Positions 1-17,655 of a stretch of 64,000 nt of DNA are shown here, in pieces (position 1 is the stretch's first letter; every line of letters begins with the position of its first letter). Source of the stretch: Pseudomonadales bacterium (GTDB taxonomy: Bacteria; Pseudomonadota; Gammaproteobacteria; Pseudomonadales; Ketobacteraceae). The position numbers and the translations under genes are program-made. The stretch spans positions 14,398 through 78,397 of the forward strand of contig PAPM01000002.1 in assembly GCA_002708905.1 (NCBI GenBank), given 5' to 3'. Below the pieces are notes generated by a model. It saw only the letters and a list, made by a program, of their open reading frames with translations. It searched no databases and was not told the DNA's origin.

Positions 1-336
1 GTTGTCGAAAGCGATCAACTTGAGCCAGCCACAACCGTAATAGGTCACGATGTCTGGATTGGGCAAGGCGCCATTCTGTTGCCTGGTTGTAAACATGTGG
101 GCAACGGCTCTATCATCGGAGCAGGCTCTATTGTCACAAAAGATGTACCTGACTACGCAATAGTCACAGGTAATCCTGCCAAAATCATTCGATATCGTTT
201 CGATGAGGAAAAGATAAAAGACCTGCAAGCCAGCTGCTGGTGGGACAAGCCGTTCTCACAGATCAAGAACCATAACAAAGACTTTTGCGTTTCATTGGAA
301 GATCTGAACGCCAACGACTCGATTCTTCAACGTTAA
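1..336 (+). CDS. CatB/WcaF-family O-acetyltransferase, 5' end missing
   Basis: The frame is open from the first base to the stop at 336, so the start lies outside the window; 111 C-terminal residues are visible. They form left-handed beta-helix hexapeptide repeats (GHDVWIGQGA, VGNGSIIGAGSIV) followed by the family's closing signature, GNPAKIIRYRF then a WWD motif near the C-terminus. Enzymes of this xenobiotic acyltransferase/WcaF type move acetyl or other acyl groups from CoA to a hydroxyl or amine; in a polysaccharide locus the acceptor is usually a sugar. The gene converges on the glycosyltransferase at 365-1561 with 28 bp between them. It is homologous to the C-terminal domain of the NRPS at 3955-9753. 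The substrate cannot be read from the sequence. Confidence 0.85.
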   Translation, partial: VVESDQLEPATTVIGHDVWIGQGAILLPGCKHVGNGSIIGAGSIVTKDVPDYAIVTGNPAKIIRYRFDEEKIKDLQASCWWDKPFSQIKNHNKDFCVSLEDLNANDSILQR

Positions 337-364: not shown

Positions 365-1561
365 TTACGACTTATACAGACTAAGAAGCTTCTCTACGAG
401 GCGATTCCATGTGAACTCTCTAGCAATCCTGGCCTGAGCTGCCATTCCCATTGCTTTCGTTTTCTCAGGCGAAGCAGCGAGTTCATCAATAGCTTCCGCA
501 ATTAACGATACCATCGCATCTTTTTCCATTATAGGAATTTTCTTACCGCATTGTTCATCAATCATATAGCCCGGACCTCCGCGATCTACGCAAATGGTAG
601 CCAGACCTGCAGCCATCGCTTCGGAAACAGCTAGACCCCATGCTTCTTTCAAACTTGGAAACAGTAGTACATCCGCCGAATAGTACGCTTTCAATACGTC
701 GTCATGAGTTACGAAACCGTGAAAATTTACGACACTATTGAGATTCTTATTATTTACAAACTCACGTAACTCATCTTCCAACGGACCACGTCCGTAAATA
801 TTAAATTCAATGTTGGAGCTGCTCACCTTCGCCAACGCTTCCAACGCCAATCTAATACCTTTACTCTCAATAAGCCGTCCAACAAAAATCAAACGTAGAT
901 TTTCACTTTCGACTCTATCCGGTGCCACTTCCAGCTGCTCTGGGGGCTGTGGTGGTATCACCACTACCCTATCTGCAACCTGTGGAGGAAGAGCATCTTT
1001 AACGTATGGTGCAGATACCAATAGTTTATTGGTCGATGAAAAATGGGCCGACATTAATGGGTCGTAAGTTTGACGAATTCTGTCAATGAATGTAACCAGC
1101 CTGCGTAAGAAGTGGGCCTTACGTGTCGACTGGAAAATGGAGGGCATCTGCAACCCCCCATGTAATGGCCCAACCAGCAGCTTTAGTCCCAATCCGTACA
1201 AAGGCGTTGGATATCTTGGAGAGTGCGGTGCAATATGATGAGCAACGTCAAAAGTTTCCTGAGAAACTAGCTGTTTAGCCAGTTTGTGGGCTCTGAAAAA
1301 AAACTCCACATAATCTGGTTTAATCACACGATCAAACGCACCTGTCCACCGGAATGTGATTTTTGGCTTAACGATGCAAAGTTTAACGTTAGGGTGATCT
1401 TCAAATCCACAGGTAGTGTTGATTCGACTCCCCATTGTAATCAACGTCACATCGACGTACTTAGAAATGTTATTAATCCAGTGCCACGTTAGATGCGCTT
1501 CACCTACATCCTTGTTGTCTACTGCATACGCACACATGAGAACTTTCATTCGCTTCTGCAT
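365..1561 (-). CDS. Glycosyltransferase family 4 (GT-B fold)
   Basis: A 398-residue protein with a GT-B two-domain layout: an N-terminal acceptor domain and, from about residue 225, the nucleotide-sugar domain typical of family 4 (LRLIFVGRLIESKGI, then FPSLKEAWGLAVSEAMAAG, the E-x7-E donor-binding motif). It should transfer a sugar from an NDP-sugar (possibly the dTDP-rhamnose made nearby) to the growing lipid-linked repeat unit at the cytoplasmic face. The first ATG (1561) has a weak AAGGG upstream; a second ATG at 1549 overlaps the stop of the upstream gene as ATGA and may be the real, translationally coupled start. It is the last gene of the minus-strand series. Donor and acceptor are unknown. 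Confidence 0.9.
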   Translation of the reverse strand: MQKRMKVLMCAYAVDNKDVGEAHLTWHWINNISKYVDVTLITMGSRINTTCGFEDHPNVKLCIVKPKITFRWTGAFDRVIKPDYVEFFFRAHKLAKQLVSQETFDVAHHIAPHSPRYPTPLYGLGLKLLVGPLHGGLQMPSIFQSTRKAHFLRRLVTFIDRIRQTYDPLMSAHFSSTNKLLVSAPYVKDALPPQVADRVVVIPPQPPEQLEVAPDRVESENLRLIFVGRLIESKGIRLALEALAKVSSSNIEFNIYGRGPLEDELREFVNNKNLNSVVNFHGFVTHDDVLKAYYSADVLLFPSLKEAWGLAVSEAMAAGLATICVDRGGPGYMIDEQCGKKIPIMEKDAMVSLIAEAIDELAASPEKTKAMGMAAQARIAREFTWNRLVEKLLSLYKS

Positions 1562-2478
1562 CGCAGCAAACCCTTAAGTCCAGATTTATGATTATCTATA
1601 ACAGTCTCATACTTGTTGCTATTTGATAAAAGCGAAAAAACGTAGACAACGGGAAGACGAGAAGCGTAGAACGCAATCATCATCAAATAACCAAAAACAA
1701 ACGATGGTTTATTCCAATGCTTTTTCATGTATCTAATTGTTGATTGGTCTTTAATAAGTGCCCGCTTGCTGCCCAAACGTGCTGCGCTTGCACCACCCAA
1801 GTGGATGATATTAGCATCGGGATAAAACCCAAGCTTCCAGCCAGCTTTTACAAAGCGATAGCACCAATCAACTTCCTCTGAATACATAAAGAAACGCTCA
1901 TCCATGTCACCAACATCAGATAGGGCTTCTCGCTTCACCAGCATGAAACAACCTTTTAGAACCTGGACGTCCCGTTCGTCAGAGTAGTCCCACCATGTCA
2001 TTTCCGCACGACCAAATATCTTGCTTTTGGGGAGTGCTCTATATAGGCCTGTTACAAACAGCAGTGAATTAAAAATAGATGGAAACATTGAGCAATTGGG
2101 CTGCAATGAAAGATCTTTGTTAAGAATTTTGCAGGAAATCACCCCATAGTCTGGATGCTGTTTCGCGTAAGCCAATGTCTTTGATAACGCGTTTTCTAGC
2201 ACAATCGTATCACTATTTAAGAGCAACACATATTCAGAGTCTGCATATTTGAAACCTATATTATTAGCTGCAGCAAACCCAACGTTCTCAGAATTGGCTA
2301 TAAGCTTCACATCTGGAAACTCTCTTTTGATCATTTCAACTGAGCCATCTTCCGAAGCATTGTCAACAACAATAACTTCGTAATTGATCCCTTGAGTTTC
2401 TTTATAAACAGATTCTAAACACTCGCGTGTAACTTCAAGTGTGTTCCAGCTAACGATAACTATTGCTAGATCTTTCAT
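1546..2478 (-). CDS. Glycosyltransferase family 2, rhamnosyltransferase-like
   Basis: A 310-residue GT-A enzyme. The N-terminus (AIVIVSWNTLEVTRECLESV) is the family 2 nucleotide-binding strand, EVIVVDNASEDGS and LLLNSDT (DxD-type) give the metal/donor site, and GCFMLVKREAL with DERFFMYSEEVDWCYR is the acceptor-side motif typical of WbbL/RfbF-like rhamnosyltransferases. A C-terminal hydrophobic stretch (about residues 262-282) may anchor it to the membrane. A dTDP-L-rhamnose operon is present at 18105-21519, so rhamnose is a likely donor, but that is inference. It overlaps the next gene by a few bases and follows the polymerase-like gene after 39 bp, which points to one operon. Confidence 0.9.
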   Translation of the reverse strand: MKDLAIVIVSWNTLEVTRECLESVYKETQGINYEVIVVDNASEDGSVEMIKREFPDVKLIANSENVGFAAANNIGFKYADSEYVLLLNSDTIVLENALSKTLAYAKQHPDYGVISCKILNKDLSLQPNCSMFPSIFNSLLFVTGLYRALPKSKIFGRAEMTWWDYSDERDVQVLKGCFMLVKREALSDVGDMDERFFMYSEEVDWCYRFVKAGWKLGFYPDANIIHLGGASAARLGSKRALIKDQSTIRYMKKHWNKPSFVFGYLMMIAFYASRLPVVYVFSLLSNSNKYETVIDNHKSGLKGLLRCRSE

Positions 2479-2517: not shown

Positions 2518-3774
2518 CTACGCATTGGTACTTCCCTCCAAATCATATCTTTTTTTTCTGGTTTTAATTGAATTTTCGATTTCTTCTTTAAATGCTGATC
2601 TCAGGATCAATACAATCGCAAACCCTAACCCCAGGTAGAAATTAAAGTAGATGTATGCAGCGTTCCAGTAATGCACTGTCCCCGCCGAAACACAAAGTCC
2701 TGCAAATCCACAAAGCCAACCACGACGAATTGCCGTTAGCTTTTTGTCTTTAACTCTATATTTGAACAAGCCCTTTAGAATAAGGTAAATAGCTATCAAG
2801 TAACTAATAAGTGCAGGGAGGCCATACCTCAGCATAATCACAAGCCAGTAGTTGTCTACGCTAGACCCCATATACTCTGGCCTGACCCAGTCATTGAGAC
2901 CAATACCGAAAAATGGATTATCCGCAACATTCTGAGTTCCAAATATCCATATATAGTATCTGTTATAAGCAGTATGCGCACTGAATACCAAGACGCTAAG
3001 AATTGCCATGAAGCCTGAGCGGTTTGAAAACATCTCGGCAACGATATAGATAAAGAACACTATTGCTGCCAGCAGCATCCACCTTTTCTTGGTTTTAATG
3101 AACCTCTCCCAGCCGATTAATAGCGCCTGTGTCAATATTGATGCAATAGCGCCTGAAGAAAGCGACGTGGCTGTTGCAACTACAGGTAACATTGTCAACC
3201 ACCATCGAGTACAAAAATAGTAGAAGCCGATCACAGAGGAGGACACCACGCCATTCAGAATAGGGTGGTCAAATGTCGCCAGTGCTCTCTGTAAACCCAA
3301 CCGGGGGTCAATGTGTACATGGTGCCCACCAGATATGGCATCGGTAAAAGTTCTAAACCAGTTGAAACCGGTAACGCTTTCAGGAACTGAAATAAGCAAT
3401 AGTGACGCTACCGATATCATCATCACTTTAACCAGCTTTTCCAACTCCCGAACACTTTTAACGTAGGTAAGAACGATGAAAAAAGGTGCGGCCAGTTCGA
3501 TGAAATTTATACCGCCTGTTTCCACCCCTAGCGCAAAATCATGATTAACCCAGAGCGCGAAGAAGGACCATATCCCACAGAATATTATGAAAAATCCAGG
3601 ATTATCCGCCCTGAATCTAAGTTGTTGCGCAAATTTAGGTATGTTCGCAAGAAAAAATACGATAAGGAGGATTCTATAAGGCGTCAACCTCATAAAACCT
3701 AGATTCACTGATATGGACGTAGGCAGATACATTGCGAAATAGAACGCATAGAATAAATAGGGACTAAATCGCAT
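2518..3774 (-). CDS. O-antigen polymerase/ligase-like membrane protein (Wzy/WaaL superfamily)
   Basis: A 418-residue polytopic protein with roughly ten or more hydrophobic segments, starting at once with MRFSPYLFYAFYFAMYLP. A large periplasmic loop between late helices contains NPFFGIGLNDWVRPEYMG, the type of NPxxGxG-xx-W loop motif seen in Wzy polymerases and WaaL ligases. It would polymerise or attach the lipid-linked repeat unit on the periplasmic side. Family membership is judged from topology and this loop, since primary sequence is poorly conserved. It lies among glycosyltransferases, downstream of the NRPS gene with a 180-bp gap. No Wzx flippase or Wza/Wzc exporter is inside the window, so the export route is outside or different. 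Polymerase versus ligase cannot be settled here. Confidence 0.75.
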   Translation of the reverse strand: MRFSPYLFYAFYFAMYLPTSISVNLGFMRLTPYRILLIVFFLANIPKFAQQLRFRADNPGFFIIFCGIWSFFALWVNHDFALGVETGGINFIELAAPFFIVLTYVKSVRELEKLVKVMMISVASLLLISVPESVTGFNWFRTFTDAISGGHHVHIDPRLGLQRALATFDHPILNGVVSSSVIGFYYFCTRWWLTMLPVVATATSLSSGAIASILTQALLIGWERFIKTKKRWMLLAAIVFFIYIVAEMFSNRSGFMAILSVLVFSAHTAYNRYYIWIFGTQNVADNPFFGIGLNDWVRPEYMGSSVDNYWLVIMLRYGLPALISYLIAIYLILKGLFKYRVKDKKLTAIRRGWLCGFAGLCVSAGTVHYWNAAYIYFNFYLGLGFAIVLILRSAFKEEIENSIKTRKKRYDLEGSTNA

Positions 3775-3954: not shown

Positions 3955-6900
3955 TTACCTTATCTGATTCCCTTCAAGTGGTTTCATAAATTCATCCCGC
4001 AGCTTTTGCAAATCTTCTATTGAATAATCCCACCATCGAACTTTCAGCAGTTTTTCAATGGTTTCCTGAGAAAAACGATACCGTATAACCTGCGCCGGGT
4101 AGCCCCCCACAATCGCATAAGGTGGCACATCACCCACCACCACTGCACCGGACGCAATAACCGCTCCGTCACCAATCTTCTTGGTAGGATAAAGTATCTT
4201 GGCGTCCGCACCGATCCATACATCGTTACCGATTTCGACCTGTACCCGATCCAGTTCATAACCCGGCGTGAAGCCAAACTGAGGATGATAGAACATACCG
4301 TGGGTGGAGAGTGTGTTCCTCGGGTGATCTGCATTCTGGATTAACGATGTTCGAAAAACTGAACAATACTTACCGATTTTAGTCGTCCTACGTAGATTTC
4401 GTACATTAAATCCCACGCTTGTGAAATCACCAATTTCAATATTGTAGTGTTTCTTAAACAGCTTCCTTAAGGTAACTGTGAATGTGGAGCCACCTTCCAA
4501 TTTCAGAATTGCTTTTTCTATTAGATTCTTGATCTTTCCTGGGCTTCTGCCATATATCCTTGCGAGGATTTGTTTACACAACCAGGACTCCCTCATGCCA
4601 AAACTGCCTTTGGCGTGCGTAGGCTCAGTCTTCGGCAATGCGGAAAAAACCGCAAGTATGTCATCTACCTTCTTACGCTCTTCGTCACTCAGGACTGAGT
4701 AATCCTGATACGCTGCCTGATCTCCGGCCTGGGTGATGGAAACAATTGCGTTGGAAAGCTTCTCTACCGATTGCAGTTCAAACAATATGGTGGGTGGGAG
4801 CTCAAGATCAAACTGCCGGTTGATTTTGGCTACCAGATGTAACGCCGAGAGGGAATGCCCCCCCATATCAAAGAAGTTCGCTTGCAATGAGGTAACAGGG
4901 GTTTTTAACACATCCTGGAAGAGTTTGAGCAATTGGGTGGTAACCGTATCCTGGGTCAGGTTAGTCGTGGCGGCCGCAGAATTGGTTTGCTCCTGAGGCG
5001 CAGGCAATTTCTTGCGGTCGACTTTTCCATTAGGTGTTAAGGGAAAACTCTCCAATTCAATAAACGCCGATGGAACCATGTAATCCGGCAAGCTGTTGCG
5101 GATATGCTCACGAACTCGATCCACCTCAATTTTGGTGCCTCCGGCGCCTACCATATAGGCCACCAGGCGAACATCACCCGGGCTATCCTCCCGCGCGATG
5201 ACGACATTATGGGCAATGCCCGGGTACTCCGAGATATGGGATTCAATATCACCCAGCTCGATTCGAAAACCCCGGATCTTGACTTGATTATCCATTCGCC
5301 CCAGAAACTCGATGTCTCCATTCGCCCGGCGAATGGCCAAATCACCCGTTCGATACAATCGAGTTCCCGGTTGGAATGGATTGGGTATGAATTTCTCACG
5401 GGTGATATCTTCCCGGTTGAAGTATCCCCGTGCCAGACCATCGCCACCGATTAACAACTCACCGGGAGCCCCAATAGGCTGCAGGGTTTGATGATCGCTG
5501 CAAATATACAGCTGCGTATTGGCAATCGGATGTCCAAGTATCAGTGCATCCTCTTTGCGTTTCACATTGCAAACGGAAGACCATATGGTGGTTTCAGTTG
5601 GCCCGTACAGATTCCAAACATCGCAACCCACGGCAATCAGCTTTTCCGCCAAGTCAATTCCCATGGCTTCACCGCCGCAAAGGGCTTTCATCCCCGGCAC
5701 ACCGGTCCAACCAAATTCCAGCAACATACGCCAGGTCACCGGGGTGGCCTGCAGAATCGTTGCACTGTGTTGGTTAAGGCTTTCCATAAGCAATGTGGGC
5801 GACATTGAGACTTCCCTTCTCTTCATCACCAATTGGGCACCGGTAATCAGGGGGAGGAAAATCTCCAGTGCTGCAATATCAAAACATATGGTGGTAATAG
5901 AATGAAGGATATCGCTCTCGGTGATACCGGGCTCTACCTGCATCGAACAGAGGAAATTCACCAGAGATTGATGCTGCAGCTGCACGCCTTTTGGTTTGCC
6001 GGTTGATCCGGAGGTATAGATTACGTAAGCCAGGTTTTCCGGCTGCACACTGACCGGCGGATTTTCAGAATAAGGTGAGTCAAAGAGTTCGGAATCCGGT
6101 GTAAGCATGACCTGGGTAGCATCACAGGCAGGCAGCTTTTCTGCCACTCCGGGCTGGGTGATCAGTACCATCGCCTGTGAGTCGTCGATCATGTAAACCA
6201 AGCGTTCTGCGGGAAAATCCGGGTCCAGTGGTACATATGCACCGCCGGCTTTCATAATTCCAAGCAGTGCAATCACCAGCTCAGCAGATCGGTTTAAGCA
6301 GACTGCGACCAGTTTTTCCGGCCCCACACCCAGTTCAATCAGGTGTTGGGCAAGCTGATTGGAGCGCACATTGAGTTCTTGGTAGCTCAGTGGGCCGGCT
6401 TCGGATATGAGAGCGGTTGCCTGCGGTTTGCGTTTAACCTGCTGTTGAAACAGCTCATGAGTACACTGTCGGTCAGGATACGACTGTTCGGTGTGATTCC
6501 ATTGTTCGAACACCATATCATGCTCGGTAGCAGACAGCAGTTCCAGATCCCAGGTTGGGCGTTCTGCATTTTCCACTGCACTGGTCAGCAGTTGGATATA
6601 GTTGTCGGCCATCCGGGCAACGGTATCCTGATTAAAAAGATCCGTGCTGTATTCCAGTGTGCCGCTGAGCGCCTCGTCTTCTTCCAGCATCGACAGAGTC
6701 AGATCAAACTTGGAACCACCCGGATGGGCTTCAATCGGAGTCAACGTCAATCCGGGAATGTTCCATTCGGTAAGCTTGGCATTGCGGTGAATAAACAGGT
6801 GCTGGAAATAAGGGGATATTCCGGCTTTGCGTTCCGGGCGCAACTCCTCCACCAAGCGTTCAAACGGCAATTCATCGTGGGACAAGGCGTCCAGGGTGGT

Positions 6901-9753
6901 TTTGCGCACTCGGGACACCAGCGTTTTGAACGAGGGGTTGCCCGACAGATCGGTGCGAATCACCAGGTTGTTGATGAACAGGCCGATGAGGCCTTCCGTT
7001 TCCATTCGGTTGCGGCGCCCGGTGGGTGTTCCAACCAGGATATCGTTTTGTTGTGTGTAACGATGCAATAGCAGTTGCCAACCTGCCAGCAGCACCATGA
7101 ACATGGTGGCGGACTCATCCCGGGCAAAGTACTCCAACGCAATTCGCAATGAGGCAGGAATGGTAAATTTGACCTGGCCGCCTTTGAGGGTGGGCTTGTC
7201 CGGGCGCCGGTGGTCACTGGGCAACTGAAGCGGCTCCGGTGGATTGGCCAGTTGTTCTTTCCAGTATTCAAGGTCTTCCTGATAGGAATGGTTTTGGCTG
7301 TTCTGTTGCTCCCAGGCGGCAAAATCCGCGAACTGGATCGCCAGCGGTTGCAACGGCGAATTCAGTGGTTGGCTGGCCGCCATTTGGGTGGAGAACGCAT
7401 CGTACAGCAACCCTAGCTCTTGAAAGAATATGCCGGAAGACCAAATGTTATCGTAAATAATGTGATTGAATATCAGGACCAGTACGTGATCCTCGCTGTC
7501 CAGCTTGATCAGCGAACTCTCAAACAACGCATCCAATGCCAGGTTATGCACCCTCGACAGGGATTGATGCACCAAATCATCCAGTTTTTTCTCACGATCA
7601 TCGCTGTTTAGATCAGATAGATCCATGGTGGTGAGCGAGATAGGATAGGGAGGGCGGATGACCTGGTAGGGGCCATTGTCGTCATGGGGGAAATTGGTTC
7701 TCAGGGTTTCATGACGCGCTACTATTTCGGTTAACGCCGCTTCTAATGCCTTCTTGTTCAGCTCGCCTCGCAAGCGGACTGTGTTGGAAATATTGTAGGA
7801 TGAGCTGCCCCCTTGCAACTGATTCACCAGCCACATTCTTCTTTGGGCATAGCTGGTGGGCAGCTCTTGATTTTCAGCTCTGGGTATTGGAAGCAGATCA
7901 GGGGTTGCATCCTCGGTTACGGATGCTGCAGAGTCGATGCTCTCTGCCAGTTGCTTGAGATCGATCGCATCAAACACAGATCGCATTGACAGCTTCACGC
8001 CGAAGCGTTTGTTGATTCTGGACACCAGCTGAGTGGCTTTCAACGAATCCCCACCATACTCGAAGAAACTCTGATTGGTGCTGAGTTTTTCTTTCTTCAG
8101 CAGTGCCTCGCACAGCTCTACCAGTACCTTTTCTGTTTCATTGGCGGGGGCTACATATTTATCAGTGACTATTTCAATTTCAGGGCTGGGATCCGGTAAT
8201 CGGTTGCGGTCCATCTTGTTGTTGGGCGTTTTTGGTAACGACTCCATTTTGATGAACATGGCGGGTATCATGTAATAAGGAAGTCGTTCCGCCAGATGTT
8301 GGCGCAACATCCTAACATTGATGGATTCTGATGCTTCGGTTGGGGTCAGTACCAGGTAAGCCACCAACTGGGTTTCCTGGCCGATGTCTTTCGCGACGAC
8401 GACGGTCTCTTCCACACAGGGGTGATCCAGCAATGCTGTTTCAATTTCACCGATTTCAATCCGGAAACCTCGAATTTTAACCTGAAAATCTTTTCTGCCT
8501 TTGTGGAGCAAAAGGCCGTTTTCCAGCATCATTCCCATATCACCGGTGCGGTACACTCGGGTACCCGGGTGGTCTGGATCAGTTTCAAATACCTTATTGG
8601 TTATCTCTTCGTCGTGCCAATAACCCAAGGCGATATATGGGCTTCGCACCGTGATCTCACCCACTTCTCCCGCCGCCACCGGGGCACCATCTTCTCCCAA
8701 TAGGCGTACTTCCACATCCTCTACCGGGTATCCGATGGGCACAACCTTGCCTTCCAATTTGGTATTGGGGTCAATCTTGAAATGGCGAATGGTGCCCGTT
8801 TCTGTCGACCCCAAGCCGGTGAAGAAATGGATGTGCTGCCCAAATATTTTGCGGGCCAGTTGCACATCGGAAGTCAGCACCCGCTCGCCTCCGAATATTA
8901 CCAACCTGATGGCATAGCCTGCGCCGGTTGTTTCATTTTCTGCAGCGAATTGACGGAATACAGAAGCGACCGAGTGATAGATAGTGATTTTATTTTCTGC
9001 AAGCCAGGCTGAGAGGTTTTCCAGTCCCTGTTCCCGGATGTCATAGGAATATAACGAGGCGCCATTCAGTAAAGCGCCATAAATACAATACACCGCTCCC
9101 ATAACGCTTGTTGAATATAACTGGGTGAAGCGGTCTTCGGGTGTGACGCCCTGCAGGTTGCTGCGCCGCATGCATCCGTGCAGGACATTCCGGTGGTTCT
9201 GCATGACTCCTTTGGGCTTCCCGGTTGAGCCTGAGGTGTAAAGGATGTAGGCGAGGGTGTCAGGGTCGATGCTGAGGTTGAGGTTGGTGTCATCCGTGGC
9301 AGGATCAATGGTGTCAAGGTTCACCAACACGGAGTCATCACCTGAAACGGATTGCGCTGAGCCCAGGTGTTCGGTATTGGTTAATATCAACGATGTCTGG
9401 GCATGATTGAATATGTATTCGTTTCTGGATTCAGGGAACGCTGGGTCAACGGGGACGTAGGTATTGCCGGACTTCAACACACCCAATATCGCCGCCATGT
9501 TGAGCGTACCTTTCTCCAGGTAGATAGCCACTCGCTGGGACGTTTGATTGTCCAGGCGGGCACAGATCGTTCGGGCGATTCTGTTTGCCTGGCGATTAAG
9601 CTCGTTGTAGGTGAGAGCTGACTTGGCATCTTCCATCGCCAGATGGTCACTGTAGAGTTCTACCTGCTGTTCAAACCGGGTTGCGATCGACTGTTCCGTT
9701 GCCACCTTTGGAAAGCTGGAAAACTCGTTCAGGTGAGTGTTATACATGCTCAT
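3955..9753 (-). CDS. Two-module NRPS ending in a CatB-type acyltransferase domain (A-PCP-C-A-PCP-XAT)
   Basis: About 1932 residues counted from the ATG at 9753; the frame extends to a TTG at 9768 and another ATG lies at 9747. Domain order: adenylation domain 1 (about 25-540; YILYTSGSTGKPKG), carrier protein 1 (phosphopantetheine Ser about 570 in GGDS), condensation domain (about 630-1060; NHIIYDN variant of HHxxxDG with His about 764), adenylation domain 2 (about 1085-1585; FDIAALEIF, LYGPTETTI), carrier protein 2 (Ser about 1634 in GGHS), then a linker and a beta-helix xenobiotic acyltransferase domain (about 1735-1932; catalytic-type His about 1810 in NADHP, closing VIRYRF and WWD). There is no thioesterase, reductase or epimerase. 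A1 has Met where alpha-amino-acid domains have the Asp that binds the amino group; A2 reads D-I-L-Q-L-G-L-I-W-K, a code I recall for glycine. I infer that the last domain hands the carrier-bound product to a glycan or other amine/hydroxyl. No phosphopantetheinyl transferase gene is in view. Confidence 0.9.
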   Translation of the reverse strand: MSMYNTHLNEFSSFPKVATEQSIATRFEQQVELYSDHLAMEDAKSALTYNELNRQANRIARTICARLDNQTSQRVAIYLEKGTLNMAAILGVLKSGNTYVPVDPAFPESRNEYIFNHAQTSLILTNTEHLGSAQSVSGDDSVLVNLDTIDPATDDTNLNLSIDPDTLAYILYTSGSTGKPKGVMQNHRNVLHGCMRRSNLQGVTPEDRFTQLYSTSVMGAVYCIYGALLNGASLYSYDIREQGLENLSAWLAENKITIYHSVASVFRQFAAENETTGAGYAIRLVIFGGERVLTSDVQLARKIFGQHIHFFTGLGSTETGTIRHFKIDPNTKLEGKVVPIGYPVEDVEVRLLGEDGAPVAAGEVGEITVRSPYIALGYWHDEEITNKVFETDPDHPGTRVYRTGDMGMMLENGLLLHKGRKDFQVKIRGFRIEIGEIETALLDHPCVEETVVVAKDIGQETQLVAYLVLTPTEASESINVRMLRQHLAERLPYYMIPAMFIKMESLPKTPNNKMDRNRLPDPSPEIEIVTDKYVAPANETEKVLVELCEALLKKEKLSTNQSFFEYGGDSLKATQLVSRINKRFGVKLSMRSVFDAIDLKQLAESIDSAASVTEDATPDLLPIPRAENQELPTSYAQRRMWLVNQLQGGSSSYNISNTVRLRGELNKKALEAALTEIVARHETLRTNFPHDDNGPYQVIRPPYPISLTTMDLSDLNSDDREKKLDDLVHQSLSRVHNLALDALFESSLIKLDSEDHVLVLIFNHIIYDNIWSSGIFFQELGLLYDAFSTQMAASQPLNSPLQPLAIQFADFAAWEQQNSQNHSYQEDLEYWKEQLANPPEPLQLPSDHRRPDKPTLKGGQVKFTIPASLRIALEYFARDESATMFMVLLAGWQLLLHRYTQQNDILVGTPTGRRNRMETEGLIGLFINNLVIRTDLSGNPSFKTLVSRVRKTTLDALSHDELPFERLVEELRPERKAGISPYFQHLFIHRNAKLTEWNIPGLTLTPIEAHPGGSKFDLTLSMLEEDEALSGTLEYSTDLFNQDTVARMADNYIQLLTSAVENAERPTWDLELLSATEHDMVFEQWNHTEQSYPDRQCTHELFQQQVKRKPQATALISEAGPLSYQELNVRSNQLAQHLIELGVGPEKLVAVCLNRSAELVIALLGIMKAGGAYVPLDPDFPAERLVYMIDDSQAMVLITQPGVAEKLPACDATQVMLTPDSELFDSPYSENPPVSVQPENLAYVIYTSGSTGKPKGVQLQHQSLVNFLCSMQVEPGITESDILHSITTICFDIAALEIFLPLITGAQLVMKRREVSMSPTLLMESLNQHSATILQATPVTWRMLLEFGWTGVPGMKALCGGEAMGIDLAEKLIAVGCDVWNLYGPTETTIWSSVCNVKRKEDALILGHPIANTQLYICSDHQTLQPIGAPGELLIGGDGLARGYFNREDITREKFIPNPFQPGTRLYRTGDLAIRRANGDIEFLGRMDNQVKIRGFRIELGDIESHISEYPGIAHNVVIAREDSPGDVRLVAYMVGAGGTKIEVDRVREHIRNSLPDYMVPSAFIELESFPLTPNGKVDRKKLPAPQEQTNSAAATTNLTQDTVTTQLLKLFQDVLKTPVTSLQANFFDMGGHSLSALHLVAKINRQFDLELPPTILFELQSVEKLSNAIVSITQAGDQAAYQDYSVLSDEERKKVDDILAVFSALPKTEPTHAKGSFGMRESWLCKQILARIYGRSPGKIKNLIEKAILKLEGGSTFTVTLRKLFKKHYNIEIGDFTSVGFNVRNLRRTTKIGKYCSVFRTSLIQNADHPRNTLSTHGMFYHPQFGFTPGYELDRVQVEIGNDVWIGADAKILYPTKKIGDGAVIASGAVVVGDVPPYAIVGGYPAQVIRYRFSQETIEKLLKVRWWDYSIEDLQKLRDEFMKPLEGNQIR

Positions 9754-9777: not shown

Positions 9778-10746
9778 TCATCTCAAAGAAAAAATGGTGC
9801 AATGCTTTCTCACCCATTCTTTTGTACTGCGAGAGAAAGGTTCCCTTCCCCAGTACGCACCCGCCCAACCAGCACCGCGGTCCACGCGTGCGTCGTTGTG
9901 GATTTCCTCAATCAGGTATTCAAGTGGAGCCAACCCGTAGCGTTTGGTCAACTTGATTCGCATGTCCGTATCCATTCCATTGATGAACAACGTGGAGCCC
10001 GGCTTTAATAGATCCACCAGGTTGGCGAATGCTTCTTTTGATTTTGCTGGTGGCAGATGGAACAAAACATTTTGGGCAAACAACAAGTCAACTTTTCCCA
10101 ACGAGTTCATGAACGGCTTATCCAGCATATCACCCACTGCGAACTGAACGGGCGCCGCAATCTCCGGCTTGATTACGTATTCGTTATTGTCGATCTTATC
10201 GAAAGTTTCTGCGACGAATTCTTCGGTGACAAACGGCCCGCAATACACTTCATCACGGGAGTATTTTTGGGTTTGAGCCTGACTAATCACTTCCGGAACA
10301 ATATCGAAGCCACGAATTCTGAATTTCAAATTGGGAAACTTCGACTTCAATAAATGAGATAACGTGAAGGCCTCAGCGCCATTGCAGCAGGCAAAGATCA
10401 CGATTTCAATCACGTTATCATCGTGGAAGGACGAGCTCTGCAATAACTCGGGAATAACCCGGTCTACGATAGCCACGTATTGATTGGGGAAGCGGTAGAA
10501 CTGGGTGTAAACCCGATTTTTGCGAGGCTTTAGTTTCAATATCAACCGATACTTAATTGTTCGCAAAAAACGTTTCAATTTTGATTCGCGCATGTCTGGT
10601 TCACTGCTCACTGAAAATACTATCAGGTTCGTTGGTATCACAACCTTGGGGGGATAATAAAATTCTGGTCCGGGTAGAACTCCAAACTTGCCCGGTAACG
10701 TCAGACTATTTCCCCGAAAGGCACCGTAGATGGCCTTATTATTCAA
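9778..10746 (-). CDS. CheR-like class I SAM-dependent methyltransferase
   Basis: A 322-residue protein whose middle resembles CheR/class I methyltransferases: EIVIFACCNGAEAFTLSHLL is the SAM-binding motif I region (CheR has A-C-S-x-G-E-E-x-Y-S), RIRGFDIVPEVISQAQ is motif II with the acidic Asp, and VDLLFAQNVLFHLPP is motif IV. The stop is 24 bp before the NRPS start, so it probably precedes the NRPS in one transcript and may methylate the NRPS product, its substrate or a sugar. The start is uncertain: the longest frame begins at a TTG (10746) with no clear ribosome binding site; an ATG at 10593 would shorten it by 51 residues. It is not part of a chemotaxis cluster, so a CheR role is unlikely. 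Confidence 0.75.
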   Translation of the reverse strand: MNNKAIYGAFRGNSLTLPGKFGVLPGPEFYYPPKVVIPTNLIVFSVSSEPDMRESKLKRFLRTIKYRLILKLKPRKNRVYTQFYRFPNQYVAIVDRVIPELLQSSSFHDDNVIEIVIFACCNGAEAFTLSHLLKSKFPNLKFRIRGFDIVPEVISQAQTQKYSRDEVYCGPFVTEEFVAETFDKIDNNEYVIKPEIAAPVQFAVGDMLDKPFMNSLGKVDLLFAQNVLFHLPPAKSKEAFANLVDLLKPGSTLFINGMDTDMRIKLTKRYGLAPLEYLIEEIHNDARVDRGAGWAGAYWGREPFSRSTKEWVRKHCTIFSLR

Positions 10747-11207: not shown

Positions 11208-12128
11208 TCAGCCCCTTCTGCTTTTTATACTGGTCACAACATTATTGAAAAGTTGTTCGAAGTCCTGTGCCTGATAGGCTTTGTCACCAAGCTGTCGTAT
11301 GGGGTTTTGTCCCAACGCCAGCAGGCCTCCTTCTGCACGCTCTTTCAGCACGCCCATGAGATACTCCTCGTCGATCACTTTGATGCGGTCGCCGAAGGCA
11401 AAGGACAGCGCAGTATCACAAAGTACGTTAATCAGACGCGGTACTCCTCGACTGGCTGCATAGATCAATTGATAAGCCGCTTTGGTGAACAAGTCCCGTT
11501 CAGCCCCTGCCTGCACCAATCTCCATTTTATATAGGAGGCCGTTTCCAGTGGCGTGAGAGGGGCAATATGGAAATCAACGGTTACCCGCTGGGAAAACTG
11601 CATCAGTTGCGGTTTGCTCAGTAAATCCCTGAGTTCTGGTTGGCCCACCAAAATGACCTGAAGAAACTGATCATTGGTGGCATTGATGTTGGACAGCATG
11701 CGCAGCTCTTCCAAGACATCTTCCCCCAGGTTTTGGGCTTCATCGATGATCAAAACCGTTCGTTTCTTCAACTCAAACTGTTTCTGCAGAAATTTGGAGA
11801 AGTTCTCATACAGCGCCACCGGGTGCTGCTCGCGATAATCCAGTTTGAAAGAGTGCAATACCCAGGGCAGCAATTCACCCATGTTCTTGCGTGTGTTGGT
11901 GATTAAACCGACAGTGATCTTACCCGGCAATTGCTTGAGCAGATGTTGAATGAGTGTGGTTTTTCCACTTCCAACCTCTCCGGTAATGACTGTGAAACCA
12001 GCTTGGTTGAGCACACCATACTCAAGCATCGCAAACGCAGCACTGTGAGTATTCCCCATATACAGAAACTCAGCATCTGATATAAGCGTAAACGGCTTTT
12101 TCTTGAGTCCAAAATATGATTCGTACAT
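11208..12128 (-). CDS. ExeA-like AAA+ ATPase of exosortase/EPS loci
   Basis: A 306-residue ATPase. It starts MYESYFGLKKKPFTL, the hallmark of the ExeA/GspA-like family, has a Walker A box GEVGSGKTT (about residues 50-58), Walker B TVLIIDEAQNL and a sensor region IIVGQPELRDLL-like segment (VILVGQPELRDLL). It lacks the C-terminal peptidoglycan-binding part of true ExeA, which matches the short 'secretion ATPase' form regularly found in PEP-CTERM/exosortase polysaccharide loci. The exosortase at 14623-16242 fits this. It likely supports export or chain-length control of the polysaccharide, but the mechanism of this subfamily is not established. The start codon ATG at 12128 is well supported by the conserved N-terminus. 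Confidence 0.85.
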   Translation of the reverse strand: MYESYFGLKKKPFTLISDAEFLYMGNTHSAAFAMLEYGVLNQAGFTVITGEVGSGKTTLIQHLLKQLPGKITVGLITNTRKNMGELLPWVLHSFKLDYREQHPVALYENFSKFLQKQFELKKRTVLIIDEAQNLGEDVLEELRMLSNINATNDQFLQVILVGQPELRDLLSKPQLMQFSQRVTVDFHIAPLTPLETASYIKWRLVQAGAERDLFTKAAYQLIYAASRGVPRLINVLCDTALSFAFGDRIKVIDEEYLMGVLKERAEGGLLALGQNPIRQLGDKAYQAQDFEQLFNNVVTSIKSRRG

Positions 12129-12307: not shown

Positions 12308-12790
12308 CTACTCTTCATTGACAAAAGATTTCAGTTTTTTGATCAAGTTCACTGAAGTCTCCGGACAACCCTGTTCGGGGCTGAGCTTAGTGGCCAAGCA
12401 CGCCGATATGGCGGTGTTCAGTTCCTGGGCCGTATTTACAAACTGTATCTGCTTGTATTTGGAGAACTTTTCCGCTGTCCCCAGCTGGTGATTGTTACGA
12501 TGCTCACCTTTCTCTGCAAGCCGCGGCATCAACACCAGGGGCTTTGCGTGCTCGAGGCCGGAAATGATGGTTCCCATACCCACATGGGAAACCACCACGT
12601 CAGCCTGATTAAACTTTTCTGTGTACTCTCCCGGGCCCAGTTTCTCTACACAAGTCATGTGCTTAGCTTGATACCGGGTTTCCCCGACCTGGGCAAATAC
12701 CTCGGTTTCCGGGTGTTCAGCTGCCCACAGATCCACCGCTTCAATTAGTCTTTCAAACGGCAACTGGGTGCCAACAGTTACGAAAATCAT
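12308..12790 (-). CDS. Alg13/PssE-like glycosyltransferase catalytic subunit
   Basis: The start at the ATG of 12790 gives MIFVTVGTQLPFERLIEAV, the typical beginning of the Alg13-type C-terminal half of GT28 enzymes; a longer frame to 12841 lies inside the upstream gene. The motif VVVSHVGMGTIISGLEHAKPLVLMPR is the MurG/Alg13 donor-binding region (H-x-G-x-G-T and the P-rich loop). About 160 residues, normal for this half. It overlaps the Alg14-like gene by four bases (ATGA), so the two halves are made together and should form a bipartite transferase, as with PssD/PssE or yeast Alg13/Alg14. The donor is probably a UDP-sugar. Confidence 0.88.
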   Translation of the reverse strand: MIFVTVGTQLPFERLIEAVDLWAAEHPETEVFAQVGETRYQAKHMTCVEKLGPGEYTEKFNQADVVVSHVGMGTIISGLEHAKPLVLMPRLAEKGEHRNNHQLGTAEKFSKYKQIQFVNTAQELNTAISACLATKLSPEQGCPETSVNLIKKLKSFVNEE

Positions 12791-13245
12791 ACAACTGATC
12801 CAAAATACTGAGGCCCGTCTTCCCGTGCCAAATGCTCCCACTGGGTTATATAAAGGTCTGCAAAACGCCCCACCTTCCGGCCGCTGACTGATAATTCATT
12901 GACATTGGCAATGCTGTCCACCCAAATCGTCTTGCTCCTAATCAGCTTAGCAAGCGTGAGCGCAAAAAAACCCGGCGCCGCGCCGGTACTGAGCACCACG
13001 TGTGGTCTTATTTTAATCAGTATAGCCAGCACATTTAAGGCAAGCCAAAGGATCTTAAACGGGTTGCTCTTCAATGAAGCGTCCGGCACATAGAAAAACC
13101 GTCCTTCGGGAGCACTTTGCGCGTAGGCTCGCTCAGTACAGGCAAAATACACGTCATGATCCTCAAATGCCGGGCGCAGCCGGTTCATCTGAACCCAATG
13201 CCCGCCACAGGATGAAATCAACAGTATTCTTTTCTTTGCCTTCAT
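12787..13245 (-). CDS. Alg14/PssD-like membrane-anchoring glycosyltransferase subunit
   Basis: A 152-residue protein beginning KKRILLISSCGGHWVQMNRLRP, the Alg14-type opening (S-x-GGH-x-x-x-x-x-x-L). It has a hydrophobic stretch around residues 65-80 (ILWLALNVLAILIKI) and VVLSTGAAPGFFALTLAKLI, the acceptor-domain G-x-x-P motif of GT28 N-terminal halves. It would hold the Alg13-like partner (12308-12790) at the membrane and bind the lipid-linked acceptor. The four-base stop/start overlap with that gene supports a complex. Length and order match the PssD-PssE pairs of exopolysaccharide loci. Confidence 0.88.
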   Translation of the reverse strand: MKAKKRILLISSCGGHWVQMNRLRPAFEDHDVYFACTERAYAQSAPEGRFFYVPDASLKSNPFKILWLALNVLAILIKIRPHVVLSTGAAPGFFALTLAKLIRSKTIWVDSIANVNELSVSGRKVGRFADLYITQWEHLAREDGPQYFGSVV

Positions 13246-13314: not shown

Positions 13315-14154
13315 CTATGCCCGGGATGAGTTATCACGCTCCCAGGTACTGAAATCCGCAATGGCCATGCGATGGTCTGCATTACGCTTGGTTTGCCATT
13401 GCACATAGGCATAGACAAACGCCGCAGGCACCAACCACGGCTTCTTCAATACTAGAGACACCAGGGCTTGGGGGGAGTTCTCGCTACCCACCGACAGCTC
13501 CGGATATTTCATTTTCAGCTCCATGTTGCCGAACCGAACCCGGCTCTTGATCTTGATGAGATCCGAGAGGTTTTGGGGGGCAAAAATGGTGAACCGACAA
13601 CCGTTGGCCGTACGTCGTTCCTGTCCGCCGAACAAAGATCTGACATAGCCATCATCGGCAATGATCTGCGGGAACTCTCCAAAACGCTGGCGCCCCGCTT
13701 GTGACAGTATAAACACCCCCGATCCCACCATCTGACCATCGGCGAAATAGGGAAGGCGCATCCAAATTCCGTAAAAAGCTTTCACCATCACATTGGATCG
13801 GGACAAATCCACATGCAATCTGGGGGCCACTATTTCAACTCCGGGAGTTTCAAACTCCTGCAAGGCCCGTAGCAGATCCCCCCCCCTGAGCTGGATGTCC
13901 GCATCGATGTAAGCCCTTGGAAAGCCTGAGGCTGCCTGATCGCCCGCATTTAATGCCGCCACCTTTGAAGCAACATCCAGTTCGATCACCTTGACACCGG
14001 AGTAGCTCCGCGCGATGGCGGCAGTATCGTCTGCACACCCATTGCAAACCACGATAATTTCGAACTGACTGCCCTCCAATCCTTCAAGCAAGGCTGCAAG
14101 GCACCGCCCAATGACCGATGCTTCGTTATGTGCCGGAATAACAATACTAAACAC
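13315..14154 (-). CDS. Glycosyltransferase family 2
   Basis: A 279-residue GT-A enzyme starting at a GTG (14154): FSIVIPAHNEASVIGRCL is the family 2 N-terminus, IIVVCNGCADDTAAIA binds the nucleotide, and AYIDADIQL is the DxD metal site. GSGVFILSQAGRQRFGEFPQIIADDGYV carries the conserved acidic acceptor-side residues. A weak C-terminal hydrophobic stretch (PWLVPAAFVYAYV) could touch the membrane. It is the first gene of the minus-strand polysaccharide series and is followed after 69 bp by the Alg14/Alg13 pair. It is divergent from the exosortase gene. Sugar and linkage are unknown. Confidence 0.87.
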   Translation of the reverse strand: MFSIVIPAHNEASVIGRCLAALLEGLEGSQFEIIVVCNGCADDTAAIARSYSGVKVIELDVASKVAALNAGDQAASGFPRAYIDADIQLRGGDLLRALQEFETPGVEIVAPRLHVDLSRSNVMVKAFYGIWMRLPYFADGQMVGSGVFILSQAGRQRFGEFPQIIADDGYVRSLFGGQERRTANGCRFTIFAPQNLSDLIKIKSRVRFGNMELKMKYPELSVGSENSPQALVSLVLKKPWLVPAAFVYAYVQWQTKRNADHRMAIADFSTWERDNSSRA

Positions 14155-14622: not shown

Positions 14623-16242
14623 ATGGGCTCTTTACAGACTAAACCAGCTTCACAAGCCCTTATCATTGGAAATGTCTTACTTATTTTTCTGGTGTTGGTT
14701 CTTGAGAAGTTTGCAATTGGCTCCCATGTGTATTCAGCGGTCAAGAATTCCCATGACACTATTCTCGGGGAGCTGCTTTTCAGCCATGGGAAAGCCATAT
14801 CCCGCTCCCTGGTGCTAGCCGCCGTTATTTTCCTGATTCTGATTCAAAAGCAGTTAAACCAATACCGAACACTGTATGTAACGCTCTACAGCACCCGATC
14901 CGTATATATGTTACTGGCCCAGGTAGGTGTATTCGGCCTGTTTTACTGGAGCACCACCCCCGCCTTCAGCGACGCCCCCTGGCAGGCGGTTTACCAAACC
15001 CTGTGGGTGATCTTCGGATTGCTGCTGGCACTGCTGACCCTGGCAGCCTTTGCCAGCCTCGGATTCTGGCATCGGATCCTGCAGGAACAAAAGTGGTCAA
15101 TCGTATTGGCTTTGGCCCTCAGCACATTGGTATGGACCCTGAGTATCGCCACCCAGGGGCTTTGGACCCATTTTGCAGATTTGACTTTCTATCTGGTTGC
15201 CGGCTGTCTGGAGTGGTTCAGCAATGATGTCTATGTGGATCCTGCGGGTCGCATCATCGGTTTCCACCGTTTTCTGGTGAACATAGACACGCAATGTTCT
15301 GGATACGAAGGCATTGGCCTCGTCACCGCATTTGTGTTTGTGTTCCTATACAGTTTTCGGGCGGATTTTCGCTTTCCCAGAGCGTTATTGCTGTTTCCAA
15401 TCGGCGCCGTCGTCATTTGGCTCTTTAACGTCGTACGCATCGTTGTGCTGATTCTAATTGGTGCCTTGTGGTCTCCGGACGTAGCAGTGTGGGGCTTCCA
15501 TACCCAAGCCGGTTGGATTACGTTTATCCTGACCTCGGTGGGGATAATGTGGCTGGCTCACCACAGTGCTTTTTTCGTCAAAAACATCGAGCCCAATTCA
15601 TCATCGTCCCGCACCATCAACCTTCCCATCGCCACGCTCCTGCCTTTGATCGCGCTTTTGGGTATGACTTTCATTACCCAGGCCTTATCCGGCCAGTTCG
15701 ATTGGCTCTATCCATTAAGAGTGATTGTCGTAGCGGGCACGATTATGTACTGCTTGCGCTATCTTGATCTGAGCCCCATTCAATGGAATTACTTTTCCAT
15801 TGTTGCCGGAATTGCAGTGGCTCTTATCTGGATTTTCATGGTTGAGAAAGATGCTGAGCTTGATCAACTGTATTCCGCCACATTTGCACAATCCGCCGGC
15901 TGGCTCGTTGTTTTATGGTTGCTGTTTCGGTTTATTGGCTCAGCGATCACCGTTCCTATTGCGGAAGAGCTTGGTTTCAGGAGCTATTTGCTGTGTAAGC
16001 TGTCGGCTGTACCCGTTGCAAATCGCGGTCCTATTGTTTTTTCGGCGTTAGGCTTCATAGGCAGTTCCCTGGCATTTGGGTTACTGCATGGCGCCTGGTT
16101 GGAAGGTACCATTGCGGGGTTAATCTATGCCTGGGTGCGCTACAGGAGCACTAATATCATGGATGCTATTATTGCTCACGGCGTTACCAATGCTGCGCTA
16201 TTTGGCTACGTGCTCTACACCGGTGAATGGTCGTTACTGTAA
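14623..16242 (+). CDS. xrtE: Exosortase E/CAAX-protease fusion (XrtE type)
   Basis: A 539-residue polytopic membrane protein joining two proteases. The first half is an exosortase: catalytic Cys225 in TQCSGYEG, Arg272 in FNVVRIV and His293 in WGFHTQAGW, each in or next to a hydrophobic segment. The second half is a CPBP/Abi (CAAX protease-like) domain: Glu448-Glu449 in EELGFRSYL, His489 in LLHGAW and His519 in IAHGVTNA. This fusion is the described exosortase E, thought to process and attach exported proteins carrying a VPEID-CTERM tail in Gram-negative bacteria that make exopolysaccharide. No gene in the window encodes a protein with that tail. It is divergent from the polysaccharide genes and convergent with the sugar-phosphate transferase, whose stop codon begins one base after its end. 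Confidence 0.9.
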   Translation: MGSLQTKPASQALIIGNVLLIFLVLVLEKFAIGSHVYSAVKNSHDTILGELLFSHGKAISRSLVLAAVIFLILIQKQLNQYRTLYVTLYSTRSVYMLLAQVGVFGLFYWSTTPAFSDAPWQAVYQTLWVIFGLLLALLTLAAFASLGFWHRILQEQKWSIVLALALSTLVWTLSIATQGLWTHFADLTFYLVAGCLEWFSNDVYVDPAGRIIGFHRFLVNIDTQCSGYEGIGLVTAFVFVFLYSFRADFRFPRALLLFPIGAVVIWLFNVVRIVVLILIGALWSPDVAVWGFHTQAGWITFILTSVGIMWLAHHSAFFVKNIEPNSSSSRTINLPIATLLPLIALLGMTFITQALSGQFDWLYPLRVIVVAGTIMYCLRYLDLSPIQWNYFSIVAGIAVALIWIFMVEKDAELDQLYSATFAQSAGWLVVLWLLFRFIGSAITVPIAEELGFRSYLLCKLSAVPVANRGPIVFSALGFIGSSLAFGLLHGAWLEGTIAGLIYAWVRYRSTNIMDAIIAHGVTNAALFGYVLYTGEWSLL

Positions 16243-17655
16243 TCAATAGGCGTTTTTACCAACAAAGCCCTTGGTGAAGGTAGCAAAAATTATTTTGCAA
16301 TCCATCCACAAAGACCAATGACGTATATATTCAAGATCATAGTGGATGCGCATTTTCATTTTATCCAGGGTATCCGTTTCACCGCGCCAACCGTTCACCT
16401 GAGCCCAACCGGTAATGCCGGGCTTCATCTTATGGCGCAACATATAGTACTCGATCTGCTTGCGGTACTCTTCGTTGTGCGCAACCGCGTGGGGGCGGGG
16501 GCCCACAATGGACATTGTACCCTGCAACACATTGATGAACTGGGGTAATTCATCCAGCGAGGTACGCCGCAGGAAGGCTCCGAACGGCGTAATGCGGGAA
16601 TCGTTCTTTGATGCTTGTTTTACGCTTTCCCCATTTTCCGTCACCCGCATGGAGCGGAATTTATAAACTTTGATCTTACGGCCATCCAGTCCATAACGGT
16701 CTTGGGCGAAAATGACAGGTCCACGGGAAGACAACTTCACCCCAATGGCAATCATCAACATGGGGATGGCAATAACGGTGAGGATGATCAGCGACAGTAT
16801 CAGATCTTCCATTCGCTTTAACAAAGACCAACCACCGCGCATGGGTGTGTCATACACACTAACCGTCTGCAATCCCCCCACTTGACCTATACGGGCATGA
16901 AGCAGGTTATAAATGAAGAAGTCGGGTATCAAATGTACATCGACCGTGGTGTCACCCAATAACCTCAGAATTTGCTCTATTCGATTCTTGGCAGAAAACG
17001 GTAAACCGACAAACAGTACTTCAAATTCACCTGATTGCGCACGACGCACTCCCTCATTCACGTCACCCTCAATCATGCCGGCGAACTGATTATTGACCCG
17101 TTCAGAAGAGTTTTCCCTTGAACGGTCATCAAAGATCGCCTTCAGCTTATAACCGGTTTCAGGATGGTTAAGGATCTCCTGGACCAGCTTGCAACCCGAT
17201 TCAGACAAACCAATAATCCCCACAGAACGAGTGTTACGGCCCTCTTTTCGCATCTTGTATAGAAAAAGCCGAAACAGGATTCGCCAGCCGGATAACAAAC
17301 ATAAGGTTGAAATGATCCACACGCCTAAAATAACTCTGGAGTAATGTTCTGCTGTCTTGGCAAAAAACACGAACATCAAAACGGGCAACAGAGCAATCGT
17401 CCAGCTCAGCAACGTATAAAACAACATCTCTTTGAGGGCACCGGCCCGCCAGGATCGGTAAAGCCACAGCAGCTCAGATACAAAGGAGTAGGACAGGTTG
17501 GCTATGAGCGCCAACACAAAATAGAGGAAATCGTATTTTGTTCCGTAGAGGTAAGTAGCCACCCACAGCGCGACCTGGATAATCACCAGATCCGCCAAAC
17601 GATATAAAAACGCAAATTGGTTTACGTTATTTCTAACAAATCCATCGCTAGTCAT
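16243..17655 (-). CDS. Undecaprenyl-phosphate sugar-1-phosphate transferase, copy 1 (WcaJ-like)
   Basis: A 470-residue polyprenyl glycosylphosphotransferase. Four or so N-terminal membrane segments (about residues 15-130) precede a CoA-binding-like domain (SVGIIGLSESGCKLVQ) and the C-terminal catalytic domain from about residue 275 (KRMEDLILSLIIL, DRYGLDGRKIKVYKFRSM, RRTSLDELPQFINVLQGTMSIVGPRP-type motifs, KPGITGWAQVNGWRGE). It should load the first sugar phosphate, probably glucose or galactose, onto undecaprenyl phosphate to start each repeat unit. It is nearly the same protein as copy 2 (21580-22980); over the last about 195 residues I count about 13 differences. It diverges from the rhamnose operon. 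Confidence 0.93.
   Translation of the reverse strand: MTSDGFVRNNVNQFAFLYRLADLVIIQVALWVATYLYGTKYDFLYFVLALIANLSYSFVSELLWLYRSWRAGALKEMLFYTLLSWTIALLPVLMFVFFAKTAEHYSRVILGVWIISTLCLLSGWRILFRLFLYKMRKEGRNTRSVGIIGLSESGCKLVQEILNHPETGYKLKAIFDDRSRENSSERVNNQFAGMIEGDVNEGVRRAQSGEFEVLFVGLPFSAKNRIEQILRLLGDTTVDVHLIPDFFIYNLLHARIGQVGGLQTVSVYDTPMRGGWSLLKRMEDLILSLIILTVIAIPMLMIAIGVKLSSRGPVIFAQDRYGLDGRKIKVYKFRSMRVTENGESVKQASKNDSRITPFGAFLRRTSLDELPQFINVLQGTMSIVGPRPHAVAHNEEYRKQIEYYMLRHKMKPGITGWAQVNGWRGETDTLDKMKMRIHYDLEYIRHWSLWMDCKIIFATFTKGFVGKNAY

Follow-up and report, generated by a model that had tools for sequence, protein, structure and literature searches.

The locus described here raises the question of where a modular synthetase sends its product when the domain behind its last carrier is an acyltransferase and its neighbours are genes for a polysaccharide. 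The gene lies in a 64,000-nucleotide stretch of DNA (the window) on contig C2 of a 5.4-Mb genome, that of a marine-type bacterium whose nearest named relative is a Ketobacter MAG. An initial annotation had read it as an NRPS of the order A-PCP-C-A-PCP, closed by a left-handed beta-helix (LbH) acyltransferase and devoid of a thioesterase or reductase, and this architecture was borne out by Pfam, profile comparison and Foldseek (Table 1). Pfam reports two AMP-binding, one Condensation and two PP-binding matches in the protein and no match to a TE or reductase family. With active residues in its A, PCP and C domains the protein is an NRPS; both carrier Ser residues, the second His and the Asp of the C domain, and Lys517 are present in all 14 aligned proteins that share the A-PCP-C-A-PCP-LbH order. 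The gene end annotated at 9753 coincides with an in-frame ATG, but the open frame continues to 9768, where a TTG start lies five codons earlier. Comparison with a Ketobacter relative shows purifying constraint throughout the frame, with a dN/dS of 0.03-0.12 for all seven parts measured, and this constraint, together with long open frames in 16 genomes, ruled out an assembly or frame artefact as the origin of the fusion. The PPTase family PF01648 has two matches in the same genome.

Table 1. Coordinates of the synthetase gene, its domains and neighbouring genes in the window.
Feature	Position	Strand	Basis and remarks
3' end of stand-alone LbH acyltransferase gene (~262 aa in genome)	1..336	(+)	ORF, Pfam, genome contig
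GT4 glycosyltransferase	365..1561	(-)	Pfam; 30% identical to the gene at that place in the other Ketobacter
GT2 glycosyltransferase	1546..2478	(-)	Pfam
Wzy/O-antigen-ligase-like membrane protein	2518..3774	(-)	PF04932, 31.3 bits (cut-off 31.7)
NRPS gene A1-PCP1-C-A2-PCP2-LbH, 1937 aa	3955..9768	(-)	Pfam; TTG start; alternative ATG at 9753
C-terminal LbH (XAT-class) acyltransferase, aa 1725-1937, N-terminal helices included	3958..4596	(-)	Profile, alignment, AF2 model, Foldseek
Presumed catalytic His1815 (ADHP), aligned to the His of CatB-type 6mfk	4324..4326	(-)	Alignment
PCP2, GGHSL, Ser1639, carrier adjoining LbH	4744..4935	(-)	Pfam; alignment
A2 domain, code DILQLGLIWK	4999..6450	(-)	Pfam; alignment; code reading
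Condensation domain, NHIIYDN, second His present	6517..7869	(-)	Pfam; alignment
PCP1, GGDSL, Ser575	7924..8136	(-)	Pfam; alignment
A1 domain, code MGYHIGGTIK, Met at Asp235 position	8194..9681	(-)	Pfam; LgrA alignment; code reading
CheR-like SAM methyltransferase, directly upstream of NRPS	9778..10746	(-)	Pfam; homologue in 14/16 loci
XrtA/PEP-CTERM system-associated ATPase-like	11208..12128	(-)	TIGR03015, 284.6 bits (below cut-off 324.5)
Glyco_tran_28_C and Alg14 genes (Alg13/Alg14-like glycosyltransferase pair)	12308..13245	(-)	Family matches
GT2 glycosyltransferase	13315..14154	(-)	Family match

By fold and by sequence similarity to VatD, CatB and ApmA, the C-terminal domain belongs among the LbH acyltransferases to the xenobiotic-acetyltransferase (XAT) class, and the label "CatB-type" given to it initially is right at the level of that class. 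A five-row profile of the domain matched structures of ApmA (E 3e-29), a CatB-type enzyme (E 3e-28) and VatD (E 7e-28). The AF2 model built from a 46-row alignment reached a mean pLDDT of 87.4 and was used in preference to one from a 4-row alignment (pLDDT 39.9); in Foldseek it returned VatD, ApmA and CatB as best matches, with E of about 1e-12 and modest TM-scores of about 0.5-0.6 (query length). A check for loss of the active-site His left the initial proposal standing, as the residue is present in 18/18 fused LbHs and in 38/39 stand-alone LbHs of the alignment. In profile alignments, the His of the window protein shares a column with that of CatB-type 6mfk and lies one column off that of ApmA (ANH).

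The fused LbHs resemble VatD, CatB, PaXAT and ApmA in fold, active-site His and C-terminal WW region. However, the solved members of that group are free-standing acetyltransferases, whereas the present domains follow a carrier within one polypeptide, group as a separate clade and carry fixed differences. Maximum-likelihood analysis places 17 of the 18 fused LbHs (the domain of genome G1055 was left out) in a single clade with support of 100/98, set against 39 stand-alone LbHs, 36 of them from viral contigs. Position 1861 is Pro in 18/18 fused domains and Gly in 39/39 stand-alone ones, and 16 positions are near-fixed in the fused LbHs yet uncommon in the stand-alone set. Motifs of the NRPS-borne members include A[DE]HPRNT, a YPT turn ahead of IGDG, and PLEG close to the C-terminal end. 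From viral contigs, 82 loci were retrieved, of which 36 entered the tree and 41 a second AF2 alignment; no carrier-LbH fusion was found among the 53 with a measured frame (longest 334 aa; two were misread, at 2 and 8 aa), and a plasmid search for the fusion gave no match at E 1e-30.

Such fixed differences could also mark a degenerate or structural module that serves trimerisation without catalysis, and the Hexapep family indeed falls below the Pfam cut-off in the window protein (aa 1844-1878, 22.5 bits against a cut-off of 27). Hexapep is likewise below cut-off in the Verrucomicrobia protein described below and is not reported by Pfam in the G1055 protein; in these three proteins the LbH assignment comes from profile matches (E 1.7e-120 for G1055) and from alignment. 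A purely structural role is nevertheless highly improbable, given the invariant His, the dN/dS of the LbH part (two pairs were measured, with values of 0.105 and 0.038), and the confident AF2 model.

The carrier-LbH fusion is rare and patchy, with 18 proteins in 16 genomes of two phyla: two Ketobacter, 12 genomes of the Microbulbifer hainanensis genus, one of a further genus of that family (G1055) and one Verrucomicrobia MAG. It occurs in 2/15 genomes of the Ketobacter family and in 13/144 of the Microbulbifer family, the 13 being G1055 and the genus's 12, which are NRPS-LbH genomes found among 48 at E <= 1e-50 (this genus includes G762). In samples drawn around the Ketobacter genome, which is itself counted each time, the fusion was found in 1/194 genomes of the order at a cut-off of 1e-40 and in at least 3/390 at 1e-50, in at least 1/274 of the class (1e-50) and in at least 1/398 of the phylum (1e-45); for the last three samples the best 5, 8 and 7 candidates per genome were scored, respectively. 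Sampling was centred on this genome and, on the Microbulbifer side, on G636, and a single scan of genome contigs used patterns of one protein, so that other phyla are under-sampled. The scan gave four loci, namely those of two known fusion genomes, the Verrucomicrobia MAG and L014; the last was dropped as a member, since it reads as a stand-alone serine-acetyltransferase-like protein.

Among the 18 proteins, the LbH stands behind four kinds of upstream line. Fourteen are A-PCP-C-A-PCP-LbH (the window protein by Pfam, 13 others by full-length alignment), and the Verrucomicrobia protein is C-A-PCP-LbH (Pfam). The 4582-aa protein of G1055 (L136:908-14656) has 4 A, 4 C and 5 PCP domains by Pfam, ordered A-PCP-C-A-PCP-C-PCP-C-A-PCP-C-A-PCP by their motifs, before its LbH. 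The remaining two are KS-AT-ACP-LbH, one typed by Pfam and the other 90% identical to it. In 16/16 NRPS members the last domain is an LbH and not a TE, reductase or terminal C domain, a uniformity that follows from selection, as the LbH was the query. What the LbH is tied to is a carrier rather than any single chain type, and the occurrence of one LbH lineage behind both NRPS and PKS carriers is the expected look of a carrier-specific release domain.

The chain that the last carrier would hold was read from A-domain codes, for which all A domains were aligned with their core motifs as anchors. The A1 code is [MI][GA]YH[IT]GGT[IM]K across the 14 A-PCP-C-A-PCP-LbH proteins and MGVHIGGTVK in G1055. 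Position 235 is Met or Ile, never Asp, in 15/15 members beginning with A1, and the LgrA alignment agrees. Lacking the Asp235 of amino-acid-activating A domains, A1 should load and activate a carboxylic acid that has no alpha-amino group. The A2 code is DILQLGLIWK in 10/14 proteins and differs at one position in the other four (DILQLGMIWK, n=1; DILQFGLIWK, n=3). We take DILQLGLIWK to be a glycine code; a literature look-up of that string found nothing. The product of the window synthetase is probably an acyl-Gly. The two-residue product suggested initially is doubtful on these grounds, and a dipeptide was rejected from the LgrA alignment and code reading of A1.

The predicted chains of the relatives differ. 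The Verrucomicrobia A domain has the code DFWNIGMVHK, presumably specifying Thr, and the C motif of this line (L012:6698-10648), HPILLD, has apparently lost its second His, as judged by eye. This would leave a Thr-coded A-PCP-LbH as the working core, and the line may simply transfer threonyl. The C-A-PCP protein associated with the PKS has the code DVWHVSLVDK in both Ketobacter, which we assume to be Ser-like. The carried chain would thus be acyl-glycine in the window, perhaps aminoacyl in one relative and longer in another.

The fusion had been placed among glycosyltransferases in a polysaccharide locus, and the surrounding genes confirm this as a Wzx/Wzy-type exopolysaccharide locus. It holds a flippase, an initiating transferase, glycosyltransferases and a polymerase-like gene, the last called from a sub-threshold Pfam match and a crude hydropathy count. 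The genes on the other side of the NRPS (L010) code for Wzx, a pyruvyltransferase, an FrhB-like protein, an asparagine-synthase-type amidotransferase, an alpha/beta-hydrolase and two stand-alone LbHs, as well as Wzc-like and Wzz-like proteins that are best matched by XrtA-associated models, with scores below the cut-offs. The asparagine-synthase-like gene of this Ketobacter (L010:1205-3187) has a counterpart in Microbulbifer at L013:18760-20340, by a weak match (E 1e-6). One of the two stand-alone LbH genes is that which the initial annotation noted at 1-336. It is an LbH, 31% identical to the fused domain, but positions 1-336 hold only the last 111 codons of a gene for about 262 aa whose start lies beyond the window (L010:13945-14733). 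Contig C2 has nine ambiguous bases within its first 20 kb, some of them in this gene and none in the window.

Farther along the locus, an exosortase E/protease of VPEID-CTERM type is encoded at window positions 14623-16242, and two WcaJ-type undecaprenyl-phosphate glucose phosphotransferases (16243-17655 and 21580-22980) flank a dTDP-rhamnose gene set. Identity to the other Ketobacter is 30% for the GT4, 67-76% for its GT2, Wzy-like and LbH neighbours, and mostly above 90% for genes further out, a pattern that reads as an exchanged segment and hints at glycan structures that differ. No amino-sugar aminotransferase was found among the genes typed near the NRPS, which leaves no obvious acceptor for an N-acyl product. 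The locus adjoins mnmE, yidC, dnaA and gyrB; in G584, the relative of the same genus, both halves of the locus lie on one contig of 54,092 bases and mnmG follows the other end.

The PKS line is part of this same locus. On contig C21 of the Ketobacter genome (L009:1476-9122), a C-A-PCP protein and an alpha/beta-hydrolase-family protein precede KS-AT-ACP-LbH, with an Acyl_transf_3 protein upstream of this second line and an Alginate_lyase-family protein downstream of the PKS. In G584 a distance of 24 kb separates the NRPS-LbH from the PKS-LbH, and genes for Wzx, pyruvyltransferase, FrhB, Wzc and Wzz lie between them, so the second LbH-terminated line belongs to the same polysaccharide locus as the first.

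Association with glycan genes extends to the other genomes. A tblastn search with typed genes found Wzx, GT2, PS_pyruv_trans and Wzy-like genes in 16/16 fusion loci, and FrhB and the CheR-like methyltransferase in 14/16 each. The queries came from three loci (that of the window, L013/G762 and L012), whose self-matches are trivial and whose genes were typed by Pfam; of the three polymerase-like queries, two have no Pfam match and one is just below the cut-off. The G1055 locus holds the same cassette genes as the others. A check of whether the fusion sits mostly outside glycan loci likewise left the initial proposal standing, with glycan-type loci in 16/16 genomes. To control for simple proximity, the Microbulbifer Wzy-like protein was searched across the Microbulbifer hainanensis genus, and its gene is present in 12/48 genomes (E <= 1e-40), exactly the 12 that carry NRPS-LbH. 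Randomly labelled sets of this size would agree once in 7e10, a figure that is a guide only because of shared descent; the 12 loci belong to a single genus and have a common ancestry, and 12/12 does not represent 12 independent events. A crude hydropathy count, by which the 1937-aa NRPS also scores 3 TM-like segments, gives 11 for the Microbulbifer Wzy-like protein; this protein has no Pfam or NCBIfam match and is called "Wzy" by position and topology. Overall, the fusion is real, recurrent and linked to polysaccharide assembly.

Most NRPS and PKS products are small molecules, and the assembly line could conceivably make a small diffusible metabolite, which the LbH would attach to an alcohol or amine of small size; the polysaccharide genes would then be mere neighbours. 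Further large NRPS frames do lie on contig C23 of the same genome. However, the NRPS and the Wzy-like gene occur in the same 12/48 genomes, Wzx, GT2 and pyruvyltransferase accompany the fusion in 16/16 loci of two phyla, and one Ketobacter locus contains two LbH-terminated lines, all of which makes a diffusible product unlikely.

The reading that we favour, with a probability of roughly 0.57, is that the LbH serves as the release domain of the synthetase, transferring the chain from the last carrier to a glycan precursor. A1 would charge PCP1 with a carboxylic acid that lacks an alpha-amino group, and the C domain would link that acid to the residue, probably Gly, placed on PCP2 by A2. The phosphopantetheine arm of PCP2 would then enter the inter-subunit groove of an LbH trimer, which in VatD, CatB and ApmA is the CoA site. 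Before Wzx export, the acyl-glycyl chain would pass to a sugar acceptor, either a sugar nucleotide or a lipid-linked repeat unit, whose hydroxyl or amine would be activated by His1815. Judging from the fusion, the clade and the locus, the acceptor would most likely be a precursor of the very polysaccharide that this locus makes. The direct carrier-to-glycan transfer proposed initially gains from co-inheritance and from the single LbH clade behind different lines, but it is a step that we infer rather than observe.

The main alternative assigns the LbH a CoA-dependent tailoring role, as an acetyltransferase acting on the carrier-bound chain or on the sugar, with another enzyme of the locus releasing and attaching the chain. 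Characterised XAT enzymes take acetyl from acetyl-CoA, and the closest solved relatives of the domain, VatD, CatB and ApmA, are acetyltransferases, several of them solved with CoA or acetyl-CoA. Separate candidates are at hand in the Ketobacter locus, namely the two stand-alone LbH genes and an alpha/beta-hydrolase (L010:3456-4313), and a second hydrolase lies between the C-A-PCP and PKS genes (L009:4625-5443); either hydrolase could release the chain. Typing of 10 proteins each in L013 (Microbulbifer) and L012 (Verrucomicrobia) gave no member of this family. In L045, and by Pfam in L045 only, a GNAT/Acetyltransf_6 gene adjoins the NRPS, and open frames of similar size and place are found in 7/12 loci of the Microbulbifer genus, L045 included. 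These observations keep a tailoring role as a tentative, clearly less probable explanation, because the LbH occupies the position of a release domain, terminal behind the last carrier, in 18/18 proteins whatever the chain type (Gly-coded, Thr-coded or polyketide), and because no TE or reductase family was seen among the locus genes typed, which are part of the whole.

Off-loading onto a glycan by the LbH itself has parallels in known systems. LpxA and LpxD are LbH acyltransferases that move acyl groups from carrier-protein phosphopantetheine to a sugar nucleotide, and by analogy the NRPS-LbH would likewise use a carrier thioester donor and a sugar acceptor. However, LpxA and LpxD are unfused, use fatty-acid ACP donors and belong to another LbH branch; the LpxA-type structure 3r0s is only a weak profile match to the domain (E 6e-5). 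In perosamine tetronylation of Vibrio cholerae O1, a ligase and a carrier protein encoded in the O-antigen locus supply the sugar acyl group; unlike NRPS-LbH, that system consists of discrete small proteins, with no NRPS chain and no fusion. DltA is the ligase of the Dlt pathway. In this pathway (DltC-DltB/DltX/DltD), a carrier-bound amino acid thioester serves as donor for the decoration of a glycopolymer (PMC12148441). Dlt works through a membrane MBOAT and an extracellular Tyr relay, whereas the present LbH is of soluble type and forms one protein with a multi-domain NRPS or PKS.

An NRPS or PKS with a terminal LbH was not described in the literature searched, which covered few subscription journals. 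The route had been put forward as one not known to have been described, and this is true only in part: LbH-mediated transfer from carrier to sugar is known from LpxA and LpxD, but its fusion to an NRPS or PKS was not found in that literature. Both the domains and the logic (carrier to sugar through an LbH) are familiar, in a combination that may be new. We consider the odds somewhat better than even that these proteins form a new NRPS/PKS off-loading class, in which a carrier-specialised XAT-type LbH passes acyl-aminoacyl, aminoacyl, longer peptidyl or polyketide chains directly from the last carrier onto polysaccharide repeat units. If so, modular synthetases would write short peptides or polyketides onto surface polysaccharides within one enzyme, and template-built chains of variable length would become glycan side groups. 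This would join natural-product assembly lines with capsule and EPS chemistry, fields that have stayed mostly apart, and would provide both a signature by which such glycans could be sought in genomes and a release domain capable of making glycoconjugates.
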